From Sulfurospirillum barnesii SES-3 (GTDB lineage Bacteria > Campylobacterota > Campylobacteria > Campylobacterales > Sulfurospirillaceae), in NCBI RefSeq assembly GCF_000265295.1, contig NC_018002.1, positions 62,001 to 126,000 on the forward strand: a stretch of DNA of 64,000 nt, in the 5' to 3' direction. A model generated the notes under the pieces. It was not told where the DNA came from. It did no database searches and saw only the letters and a list, made by a program, of their open reading frames with translations. Below, one piece after another: positions 35,609 through 38,216 of the stretch; position 1 is the stretch's first letter; each line of letters begins with the position of its first letter. A program made the position numbers and the translations under genes.

Positions 35609-36121
35609 TTGGACTACTACAAATGGGTTTTAGCCTTCCATGTGATGGCATTTCTTTCGTGGATGGCAATGCTTTTCTATTTGCCTCGTCTTTTTGTTTA
35701 CCATGTTGAATATGCTGAAAAAAAAGGCTTTGTGGAAGTGGTGAAAATTCAAGAGTACAAAATCTACACCTACATTGGGCTTCCTGCCTTTTGGGCAACC
35801 CTTGCGAGTGGTCTTTTAATGATTGCACTCGATACGCAACTACTCTCAAGCGGTGGATGGATTTACGCTAAATTTGCTGTTTTAATCATTCTTGCACTCT
35901 ACTCTTTTTCCCTTGAAAAGTACCGCCTAGAGCTTGCCAATGGCACCTGTACCAAAAGTGGAAAATTCTTTCGAGCCTATAACGAAGTACCGACTGCTTT
36001 AGCCATTTTAATTGTGGGGTATGTCATCACCAAAAGTTTTTCATGGGCATTTACACTCATTACACTGGGTGTTTTAGCGATGATTATGGATGTGATTTTG
36101 GATGGAAAAGAGAAAAAATAA
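35609..36121 (+). CDS. hemJ: Protoporphyrinogen oxidase HemJ
   Basis: HemJ oxidises protoporphyrinogen IX in haem synthesis. The 170-residue membrane protein has about four helices and the family start WVLAFHVMAFLSWMAMLFYLPRLFVYH with its conserved His residues. The start is TTG after AAAGGA. It converges with the cytochrome b/Rieske operon; a TTACATGTAAA copy (36125-36135) lies in the 21-bp gap. Confidence 0.85.
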   Translation: MDYYKWVLAFHVMAFLSWMAMLFYLPRLFVYHVEYAEKKGFVEVVKIQEYKIYTYIGLPAFWATLASGLLMIALDTQLLSSGGWIYAKFAVLIILALYSFSLEKYRLELANGTCTKSGKFFRAYNEVPTALAILIVGYVITKSFSWAFTLITLGVLAMIMDVILDGKEKK

Positions 36122-36124
36122 TCC

Positions 36125-36135
36125 TTACATGTAAA
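36125..36135. repeat. Iterated palindrome copy between convergent hemJ and the bc-operon
   Basis: TTACATGTAAA lies in the 21-bp gap between two convergent stop codons. With flanking ATC/GAT it can fold into a near-perfect stem, so it may act as a weak terminator. Confidence 0.6.
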
Positions 36136-36142
36136 GATGGTT

Positions 36143-36418
36143 TTAGAGCTCTTTAGAGTGGTTGCGTTGCAAAATAATTTTAGTGTACAGCAACAAAGAG
36201 AGCACCAAAAAATAACTCACAATGCTATAACCCATGGTATCTCGCTTTAGTTGCTCTTTGGGTTCCACTGCCTGTACCCCCTCTTTTTTATGCTCACTAT
36301 GACTTAGCTCAACGTGTTTGGCCTTTGTGCTAGGGTAGTGGTGAGGCAAGACCTCTAAGCCGACATACAACATACTCATGAAAAAGAGAATGAGCATAAA
36401 AATTTTAAGATTTGGCAT
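36143..36418 (-). CDS. Small two-helix protein of the cytochrome b/Rieske operon
   Basis: The 91-residue product begins MPNLKIFMLILFFMS; a frame from 36451 is longer but lies in the cytochrome b gene. It has a membrane helix at each end (about residues 5-22 and 60-80). Between them lies a polar stretch rich in His and Lys (LPHHYPSTKAKHVELSHSEHKKEG). It has no CXXCH haem motif, although it sits where a cytochrome c1 gene normally follows petB. It overlaps the cytochrome b gene by 14 bp. I do not recognise the family; an accessory subunit is likely. Confidence 0.65.
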   Translation of the reverse strand: MPNLKIFMLILFFMSMLYVGLEVLPHHYPSTKAKHVELSHSEHKKEGVQAVEPKEQLKRDTMGYSIVSYFLVLSLLLYTKIILQRNHSKEL

Positions 36419-37565
36419 GGGTTTCCTTTTGAGATAAAAACGGTAAAACAATAAAAAGTACCATCATCAGGGTTGAAAAAACAAATCCCAACCACAACGT
36501 CAGCTCTGTCGTGGGAAGTTTGCCCAAAATACTCAGTGCAACCAAAGAGAGCACCAATGCCCAGAACCACACCGAAAAGTAGGGGCGTTGGTGTGCTGGA
36601 ATACGCCTTGGGTTTTTATCTAAAAGTGGCATAAAGAGTAGTCCTGCATTCACCACCACCAACGAAGCCATACCAATGTAAGAGCCTTTGATAAATCCGA
36701 TGTCAAAGAAAAAACTTTTCAGCAGTTGCAGCATCCACAAAAAATACCACTCAGGATAGATATGTGCTGGGGTATCGGAGGGATTGGCAGGGGTGAGGTT
36801 TAGAGCGTCAAAGGCAATGGAGCTTTGAAAAAAGACACAATAAAAAAAGAATGCCAAAAAGAGTGTGCACGCCAAAAGCGGTTTTAAAACGGCATTGGAG
36901 AAAAAGGGTTTTGACTCTTTTGGGGGGAGGGCATGTTTGCTAAAACGCTCCTCTTTGCTTACATGTAACCCTTTTCGATTCCATGAAAGTTTGGTGGTTG
37001 CGTACCATTTCATAAAGTCGACGTGTACCAAAACCATTATGACAATGAGTAACGGCATAACCACAATATGCAGCGTGTAAAAACGAAGAAGCGTAATGCC
37101 ACTCACGCTAAAATCGCCTCGCACCCAGAGCATAATATCTTCCCCAGCCCCTGGGATATACTCCAACAAACTGGTAATCACCTGTGCCGCCCAGTAGCTC
37201 ATTTGCCCCATTGGAAGCACGTACCCTGTAAAACCAATCACCATACAGCAAAAGTAGAGCACCATGCCGTTGTACCAATACTTCGTTTTACCGTGTTTGT
37301 AAAATCCAAAATAGAGCATGCCCAAAAGATGAATGTAGAGCAGTAAAAAGAAAAGGGTTGAACCCACCGCATGCATGCTTCGCCACAACCAACCGTACGC
37401 TACGTCGTGCATAATGGTTGTGTGCACACTCTCAAACGCTTGAGCGGCATCAGGGATGTAGTGCATTGCCAAAAAAATGCCTGAAACCAAAAGCAAAAGG
37501 CACAAGAGCACCATAATGGTACCTGTGTAGAGGAGGATGTTGAAATTGCTCAGTTTTACATTCAT
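36405..37565 (-). CDS. Cytochrome b of a Rieske/cytochrome b complex
   Basis: The 386-residue protein combines the N-terminal (b6-like) and C-terminal (subunit IV-like) parts of cytochrome b. Haem ligands are visible as a His pair 14 apart (SMHAVGS...LYIHLLG) and a second pair 15 apart (TLHIVVMP...LVHVDF). The quinol-site motif PEWY is in YPEWYFLWML. It would move electrons from menaquinol across the membrane. It starts 4 bp into the Rieske gene's end (ATGA-type overlap). A palindrome copy at 36959-36969 is read LHV. No cytochrome c gene is in the operon. Confidence 0.88.
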   Translation of the reverse strand: MNVKLSNFNILLYTGTIMVLLCLLLLVSGIFLAMHYIPDAAQAFESVHTTIMHDVAYGWLWRSMHAVGSTLFFLLLYIHLLGMLYFGFYKHGKTKYWYNGMVLYFCCMVIGFTGYVLPMGQMSYWAAQVITSLLEYIPGAGEDIMLWVRGDFSVSGITLLRFYTLHIVVMPLLIVIMVLVHVDFMKWYATTKLSWNRKGLHVSKEERFSKHALPPKESKPFFSNAVLKPLLACTLFLAFFFYCVFFQSSIAFDALNLTPANPSDTPAHIYPEWYFLWMLQLLKSFFFDIGFIKGSYIGMASLVVVNAGLLFMPLLDKNPRRIPAHQRPYFSVWFWALVLSLVALSILGKLPTTELTLWLGFVFSTLMMVLFIVLPFLSQKETHAKS

Positions 37566-38062
37566 GCGTGCGCCCTTTCCATCAGGCTCAAATAGGCTTC
37601 GCCCACTTCACCCACAATGAGCATTTCACCCTCTATTTTAAAAGGAGGAATGACGAGGGGTTTACTCACGGGACCTGAAAGGGCAATGCCATTTTGGTCA
37701 AATTGTCCGTTGTGGCAGGGACAAATAAACTTTTTTTCTTTGCTTTCATACTTTGGGACACAGCCTAGATGCGTACAAATGCCTATCATCACCGTGTAAA
37801 AATAGTCACCAATGTGAATATCACGCTTTGCATCTAACGCCAAAGAGGCATCTTTTTTGAGAATAAAAAGGGGCTTTTTTTGCCATGTGAAAAAGGAAAT
37901 TTCATTAAGGGGGAGGGTGGTTGTGTCAATAAACGTCGCTGCATCCAAACGGGCTTTTTTAGGTGGTTCTAAAGATTTAAACATGGTCTCTACGCTAAAA
38001 TAAACACCGCTTCCAGCCAAGGCTATTAGCGAATAATTCACAATCCTACGGTTTCTATCCAT
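37562..38062 (-). CDS. Rieske iron-sulfur subunit
   Basis: The 166-residue protein has one N-terminal membrane anchor preceded by RNRR, a possible twin-arginine signal. The 2Fe-2S ligands are in CTHLGC and CPCHNGQF, with the closing GPVSKPL proline loop. It would shuttle electrons from quinol at the Qo site to a soluble acceptor. It is first in the operon, followed by cytochrome b with a 4-bp overlap and by the two-helix protein. Confidence 0.9.
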   Translation of the reverse strand: MDRNRRIVNYSLIALAGSGVYFSVETMFKSLEPPKKARLDAATFIDTTTLPLNEISFFTWQKKPLFILKKDASLALDAKRDIHIGDYFYTVMIGICTHLGCVPKYESKEKKFICPCHNGQFDQNGIALSGPVSKPLVIPPFKIEGEMLIVGEVGEAYLSLMERAHA

Positions 38063-38127: not shown

Positions 38128-38216
38128 TTTACATGTAAAAGCTAAAAATCACACACAAAGCACGAAAAACATCAAAAATTATGTGCTACAATCCACACAA
38201 CTATTTTACATGTAAG
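38128..38216. repeat. Pair of palindromes in the Rieske/YitT divergent gap, with YitT promoter
   Basis: TTTACATGTAAA (38128-38139) and TTTACATGTAAG (38205-38216) flank a TACAAT -10 box at 38187-38192. The right copy runs into the AAGG ribosome-binding site of the YitT-like gene (GTG 38224), the same layout as at the racemase gene (3993). Confidence 0.65.

Follow-up and report, generated by a model that had tools for sequence, protein, structure and literature searches.

A second Rieske/cytochrome b operon in Sulfurospirillum barnesii with a third gene best read as QcrC lacking its dihaem domain

Introduction

In complexes composed of a Rieske protein and cytochrome b, the Rieske electrons are generally assumed to have a fixed exit, namely the subunit with c-type haem. 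The window analysed here, a 64-kb stretch of the genome of Sulfurospirillum barnesii SES-3 (a single contig of 2,510,109 bases), contains an operon that raises the question how these electrons leave when such a subunit is missing: the genes for the Rieske protein and cytochrome b are followed by a small gene whose product is devoid of a CXXCH motif. An earlier note on this DNA had interpreted the small protein as a new His-rich subunit in place of cytochrome c, and had concluded that either another carrier must accept the electrons or the complex is of a type different from QcrABC. According to a passage in PMC6195509, which cites ten Brink et al. 2013, some bacteria possess several Qcr complexes whose roles are largely unknown. 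The accessible parts of the open-access literature on Rieske/cytochrome b complexes in Epsilonproteobacteria and Sulfurospirillum, on HemJ in combination with Rieske proteins and on haem-less cytochrome c1 yielded no description of a complex of the type considered here.

Results

The operon encodes a Rieske protein and a full-length cytochrome b with intact cofactor motifs

The features of the operon and its neighbour are compiled in Table 1. Pfam searches recognized the Rieske domain (32.8 bits) as well as the N- and C-terminal domains of cytochrome b (164.5 and 88.7 bits, respectively). As both of the latter reside on one protein, the operon does not encode a cytochrome b6f complex with its split b6 and subunit IV. 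Both ligand motifs expected of the Rieske subunit of a Rieske/cytochrome b complex are present. Likewise, cytochrome b retains H65, H79, H166 and H181, which by their positions we take to be the haem ligands, as well as the PEWY motif, and all of these are invariant in the 13 window-type cytochrome b sequences that were aligned. In one of the latter (G014, locus L017), the C-terminal frame deviates from the 12 others, reflecting a frameshift or a sequencing error. The Rieske and cytochrome b genes share 4 bp in each of the 13 genomes compared, and the overlap of cytochrome b with the third gene amounts to 14 bp in 12 of them and to 34 bp in G014. The operon ends with the third gene, since the next gene is located 21 bp away on the opposite strand. 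Promoter- and terminator-like sites were not in excess over shuffled sequences. Thus, the 4-bp overlap, the full-length cytochrome b, the end of the operon and the absence of an encoded cytochrome c, all of which had been reported in the earlier note, were borne out.

Table 1. Features of the Rieske/cytochrome b operon and the adjoining gene (positions within the window)
Feature	Position	Strand	Size	Remarks
Rieske [2Fe-2S] protein	37562-38062	-	166 aa	CTHLGC and CPCH ligand motifs; Pfam
Cytochrome b, full-length	36405-37565	-	386 aa	Pfam; four His and PEWY
Third gene	36143-36418	-	91 aa from ATG	no CXXCH; best read as haem-less QcrC remnant
N-terminal segment of third protein	36344-36418	-	residues 1-25	aligned to QcrC columns 1-25
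Variable linker of third protein, replacing the dihaem domain	36257-36343	-	residues 26-54	His-rich in SES-3, not conserved
C-terminal segment of third protein, with second helix	36146-36256	-	residues 55-91	residues 55-78 aligned to QcrC columns 304-327 of 343
HemJ2, second HemJ/UPF0093-family gene	35609-36121	+		convergent (tail-to-tail) with the operon; PF03653

Both proteins differ from their ordinary counterparts. The Pro loop of the window Rieske protein reads GPVSKP, as compared to GPPP in ordinary Campylobacterota copies. More generally, [GS]PV[ST]KP is found in the 15 full-length window-type copies, and all 26 copies of the ordinary Campylobacterota type that were compared show GPPP, the other Rieske copies in this comparison having been picked by motifs of the CTHLGC/CPCH type. 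Five shortened window-type Rieske ORFs, which a crude rule had labelled ‘CAN’, were counted as window-type; a further row with this label stems from Azospirillum. Comparison of 15 window-type with 32 ordinary cytochrome b sequences revealed that the former start ~30 residues later and carry fixed differences from QcrB, e.g. a change from W to M at position 119. The altered residues of the Rieske protein and cytochrome b would fit an adaptation to a different electron partner. Because the Pro loop, conserved cytochrome b residues and the cytochrome b N-terminus are all changed, turnover through a normal Q-cycle is not assured.

The small third protein matches both membrane ends of QcrC

The ORF listing places the start of the third gene at an upstream TTG (102 aa), whereas reading from the ATG yields the 91 residues considered here; an AGGA sequence precedes the start of the small gene in all 13 genomes inspected. 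No Pfam family matched the small protein at E≤1. None of 15 homologous small proteins contains a CXXCH motif, two of which characterize the third subunit of QcrABC, and none matched the cytochrome c1 family PF02167; the copy of G444 is incomplete. A structure model of low confidence (mean pLDDT 61.1), which served for helix positions only, predicts two long helices at residues 2-27 and 52-90. The small proteins start with MPN(L/R)KIF...GLE.LP and finish with R..GY...(G)YFL.LS.L.Y.KI.L.R, and invariant residues are found at both ends, whereas variation is concentrated in the His/Lys-rich loop. Hence, the length, the lack of CXXCH and, at the confidence of the model, the two helices described previously hold; the His/Lys-rich loop turned out not to be conserved. 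A metal-binding role for this loop was rejected for the same reason.

Ordinary QcrC proteins typically start with M(K/R)ELKI...YWGVEPFAHS and end with ...ER..LG.K.IGFM.IFT.LAYLWK, as seen from 24 different proteins. In a profile-profile alignment, the small proteins matched QcrC collinearly at both ends (Table 1), with scores of 39.9 for the N-terminal and 36.7 for the C-terminal segment, as compared to maxima of 20.7 and 19.2 in 200 shuffles of the alignment columns within three segments. Individual sequences scored more weakly. At the C-terminus, all 15 small proteins matched and 14, the exception being that of G383, surpassed the top control value of 8.5 bits. N-terminal matches were obtained for 14 of the 15, six of them above, two level with and six below 12.7 bits, which is the best value among 844 control ORFs and 1500 shuffles; as control ORFs served all others with a length of 60 aa or more in the window and the further loci, rather than membrane proteins specifically. 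Alternatively, the two helices might have no relationship to QcrC, the resemblance being due to chance or to a common transmembrane composition, as the segments are short and hydrophobic and some shuffled sequences score level with some single members. We regard this as highly improbable, given that the profile scores clearly surpass the shuffle maxima, and that the segments match in the right order, from residue 1 onwards and in a gene occupying the QcrC slot of the operon.

A six-frame search with the profile of the small proteins alone, which does not depend on expected QcrC positions, also argues against chance. Among 16 fetched matches other than the small proteins themselves, 14 are 325-491 aa long and carry two CXXCH motifs as well as QcrC-type ends (5 of 7 from the phylum sample and 9 of 9 from the sample of the G383 family); the exceptions are loci L081 and L082. 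In G277 and G396, the profile matched both ends within a single frame, at E values from 0.0016 to 0.0044, and within the own genus it reached the C-terminus of QcrC only, and weakly (G019, G020 and G004; E 7e-4 to 9e-4). The C-terminal end of intact QcrC in turn matches the last part of PF02167, the cytochrome c1 family (positions 172-218 of 219). Since both ends align with the ends of QcrC above shuffles and the profile search leads to QcrC, the small gene is best read as a QcrC from which the dihaem domain was removed, while both membrane ends were kept. As in QcrABC, the third subunit starts and finishes with QcrC-type membrane segments. The previous interpretation as a new His-rich subunit in place of cytochrome c is thus superseded by that of a reduced QcrC.

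An ordinary QcrABC complex is encoded elsewhere in the genome

The earlier note had proposed a search for a second Rieske/cytochrome b set with cytochrome c, and such a set indeed exists. The genome of S. barnesii (G000) contains three Rieske loci, one of which is an ordinary operon for a Rieske protein of 173 aa, a cytochrome b of 418 aa and a third protein of 288 aa that contains two CXXCH motifs. Therefore, the window operon would encode a second, specialised Rieske/cytochrome b complex. The two cytochrome b proteins of this genome are 43% identical.

Using a QcrC profile, QcrC was detected in 27 of 27 genomes searched, including all 17 known to carry the window-type operon. The constant availability of QcrC is what could be expected if the window-type complex borrowed this subunit from ordinary QcrABC or formed mixed dimers, with the haem-less protein acting as an assembly or chaperone factor only. 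However, the small protein resembles the QcrC anchors and would compete for the same site, and the 43% identity of the two cytochrome b proteins likewise speaks against borrowing. Moreover, at E≤1e-10 S. barnesii possesses a single, full-length QcrC locus for its two cytochrome b genes, located directly behind the ordinary one. Altogether, we consider borrowing unlikely. A second possibility is that QcrC was split rather than shortened, the dihaem domain persisting as a soluble protein of its own. The position of the linker would suit such a split, but at the same threshold the QcrC profile detected no detached dihaem domain in S. barnesii, only the ordinary full-length protein; a diverged domain could fall below this threshold. 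A split gene appears quite improbable to us, and we retain the reading of the small gene as a shortened QcrC.

In G012, the sole cytochrome b match is of the window type. The idea that the window-type complex is the only one in this genome was rejected, as the QcrC matches there are interrupted, in one case by the end of a contig; the ordinary copy was probably lost in assembly gaps. The same caution applies to G010, which yielded no cytochrome b match. G015 carries two ordinary qcr operons (contig C1, 740445 and 1859413) with equal cytochrome b and QcrC scores, and duplicates of this kind may break draft assemblies such as that of G012. Haem-copper oxidases were considered as enzymes that track the operon and were rejected, as PF00115 scored above its cut-off in 27 of 27 genomes, in some with weak or partial matches only.

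The operon is under purifying selection and occurs in two families

Window-type cytochrome b is present in 15 of 24 genomes of the genus, S. barnesii included, and in the same 15 genomes the small gene follows directly behind. The operon was not found in the remaining nine, three of which are <90% complete. In a phylum sample of 397 genomes, cytochrome b matches at E≤1e-110 were obtained in 13, that is 12 of the genus and G383. The profile of the small proteins matched 20 genomes of such a sample, and the 13 with a short gene are the same as for cytochrome b, the other seven accounting for the phylum-sample matches outside the small proteins mentioned above; as the two samples of 397 genomes appear identical, these searches are not independent. 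Among 150 genomes of the family of G383, which is distinct from that of Sulfurospirillum, short-gene matches were found in G383 and G444. The identity of their cytochrome b proteins is 75% and 66%, respectively, and the overlaps of 4 and 14 bp recur in both, the small gene of G444 being interrupted at contig ends. The small gene is thus conserved behind cytochrome b beyond the genus, a point that the earlier note had suggested to check. In addition, a scan of named genomes with two peptide patterns returned at least six loci.

Median pairwise dN/dS values were 0.12 for the Rieske gene, 0.06 for cytochrome b and 0.19 for the small gene, as determined for 13 of the 17 operon-bearing genomes (G003, G016, G383 and G444 were left out) from 51, 63 and 36 usable pairs out of 78, respectively. 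These ratios show that purifying selection acts on all three genes. Its occurrence in 15 of 24 genomes of the genus, the invariable AGGA and its median ratio indicate that the small ORF did not arise by chance.

Nevertheless, the small gene could be a functionless, decaying remnant and the whole second complex on its way out. Decay would account for the highly variable linker, the nine genomes of the genus in which the operon was not found and the disturbed cytochrome b frames in G003 and G014. It is at odds with dN/dS values not exceeding 0.47 for the small gene (36 of 78 pairs) and 0.10 for cytochrome b (63 of 78 pairs), with the invariant residues at both ends of the small proteins and with the maintenance of the same overlaps in two families. 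This makes decay very improbable, and we favour a small protein that is maintained by selection.

In a cytochrome b tree, from which G016 (identical to G023) and G003 (frame-broken) were omitted, the 15 window-type rows formed one clade with 100/100 support, the two families being its two sub-branches. With 3.3 changes per column, this clade has a very long stem, and the program warned that the stem joins the likewise long branch of the outgroup; consequently, the tree does not fix the position of the clade relative to ordinary QcrB, nor does it root the clade. Since one clade spans two families, the loss of the haem domain is most simply explained by a single old event. No intermediate with one haem motif was seen among the third genes inspected.

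A distinct HemJ paralogue accompanies the operon

The convergent gene hemJ2, which is absent from the account given in the earlier note, lies downstream of the operon on the opposite strand in 13 of 13 operon-bearing genomes. Searching 26 genomes for PF03653 showed that the 15 with the operon each harbour two or more members, including one adjacent or close to the operon, whereas 11 operon-less genomes have zero to three. Thus, HemJ also occurs in genomes lacking the operon, and it is not the member count but the HemJ tree that separates the two groups: 14 operon-linked rows, including one of G383, are set apart by a branch with 99/99 support that covers two families, to the exclusion of all 28 other rows. 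The program warned of long branches among these other rows; two readable pieces of G444 HemJ2 were left out of the tree, and weak third HemJ-family matches (E about 1e-25 to 1e-31) as well as some stronger ones were not taken as separate loci. The linked HemJ of G383 is 78% identical to the window copy, as compared to 65% for the best HemJ in operon-less genomes of the genus (G002, G007, G017 and G021) and 36% in G011; G010 had no HemJ match to the window copy.

HemJ1 and HemJ2 of S. barnesii are identical at 112 of 170 positions. When ten distant HemJ rows were additionally dropped, 76 positions were invariant in 18 HemJ1 rows, and 67 of these are unchanged in all 14 HemJ2 rows, whereas at five positions HemJ2 has a different residue that is fixed or almost so. 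Relative to the known HemJ family (TIGR00701/PF03653), HemJ2 is a distinct, operon-tied paralogue that, having kept these 67 positions, may still be a protoporphyrinogen oxidase. Its TIGR00701 score of 135.8 is just under the cut-off of 138.05, as holds for 3 of 4 HemJ2 proteins tested, while the orthologue of G008 reaches 141.6 and 4 of 4 HemJ1 proteins are above. A section of the 2015 review PMC4500134 introduces HemJ as a third protoporphyrinogen oxidase and mentions an assay of a Rhodobacter sphaeroides homologue that suggests oxygen dependence.

The operon together with hemJ2 occurs in at least two genomic contexts. The first is beside pdxY and a YitT-family gene (the window and L064; L069 shows pdxY only) and the second beside a helicase-like gene and others (L065-L067, assigned by reading the sequences). 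A few genes separate hemJ2 from the small gene in G383, and pdxY does so in G444. Taken together, tree and gene order indicate that HemJ2 is linked to the operon across different contexts and co-inherited with it as a distinct paralogue. This linkage could reflect shared transfer rather than shared function.

Discussion

Judged from the gene comparisons, QcrC of this operon has lost its dihaem domain and kept its membrane ends, the cofactor motifs of the Rieske protein and cytochrome b are intact and under selection, and a distinct HemJ paralogue is co-inherited. We think it probable that the operon specifies a second, specialised complex of the QcrABC kind in Campylobacterota, consisting of a Q-cycle core without fixed c-haems, using an unlinked acceptor for the Rieske electrons and being genetically tied to HemJ2. 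With regard to the different complex type suggested in the earlier note, this would be a second, specialised complex of the QcrABC kind with a reduced QcrC. The view that the Rieske electrons need another carrier is supported.

Loss of the haem part and co-inheritance with an extra HemJ suggest that electrons leave by a route other than a fixed c-haem. In the complex that we propose, the two-helix protein would fill the place of the QcrC membrane anchors and hold the complex together. Menaquinol would be oxidised at the Qo site, one electron passing via the b haems and the other to the Rieske cluster. The Rieske head, facing no fixed c-haem, would be discharged by an unlinked periplasmic carrier, the simplest candidate being a monohaem cytochrome c of the soluble type. 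HemJ2 probably acts together with the complex, feeding electrons from protoporphyrinogen oxidation into the quinone pool served by the complex. Its role as a functional partner is our weakest inference, because shared transfer may underlie the linkage. A more far-reaching idea is that service to HemJ2 is the reason why the complex gave up cytochrome c, both forming a joint membrane unit for anaerobic protoporphyrinogen oxidation in which electrons pass via HemJ2 into the quinone/cytochrome b side. This seems doubtful to us; if true, it would reveal a physiological electron partner of a HemJ-type enzyme. The removal of the haem domain with retention of its anchors represents a natural experiment, separating the structural role of the anchors from the electron-transfer role of the haems. 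It provides a testable case for two questions, namely how a Rieske cluster is discharged when no cytochrome c is bound, and whether a quinone/cytochrome b complex can have a HemJ enzyme tied to it.

Among known systems, QcrABC (formerly PetABC) of Campylobacterota shares with the window operon the order Rieske protein, cytochrome b and third subunit as well as a full-length cytochrome b. The third subunits have the same N- and C-terminal membrane segments, but the whole dihaem domain is absent here; the divergent cytochrome b with its later start and the altered Rieske Pro loop are further differences. The cytochrome bc1 complexes of mitochondria and Rhodobacter also combine a Rieske protein with a fused cytochrome b, and the best-scoring solved chains for the window cytochrome b were from 29ye, 1zrt (presumably of Rhodobacter capsulatus) and 29xz. 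The window complex lacks the cytochrome c1 haem, and it is the end of intact QcrC, not that of the small protein, that matches the cytochrome c1 family. Rieske/cytochrome b complexes without a c-type cytochrome also occur in the Sulfolobales. There, the c-subunit is absent or replaced, whereas the window complex would keep its membrane shell.

Further observations

The third Rieske locus of S. barnesii (L090, 3364-6334; G000 contig C1, about 2357363-2360333) encodes a small Rieske and a large molybdenum subunit of the arsenite-oxidase type. The large subunit scores above the cut-offs of TIGR02694 and TIGR02693, and a gene resembling response regulators adjoins. At locus L131, on a plasmid of Nitratireductor rhodophyticola, a 4-kb stretch comprises a cytochrome b gene and no annotated Rieske or cytochrome c1 gene; a heavy-metal ATPase is encoded nearby and a gene for a universal stress protein adjoins. 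Literature linking ACATGTAA with Sulfurospirillum was searched for and none was found. The palindrome TTACATGTAA occurs at 32 sites in the 64 kb as compared to 0.12 expected, e.g. at 36125-36134, 36959-36968, 38129-38138 and 38206-38215. Some sites are intergenic and at least one lies inside a gene, namely that of cytochrome b. Nine other loci of 8-16 kb, including that of G383, contain 2 to 9 sites each.
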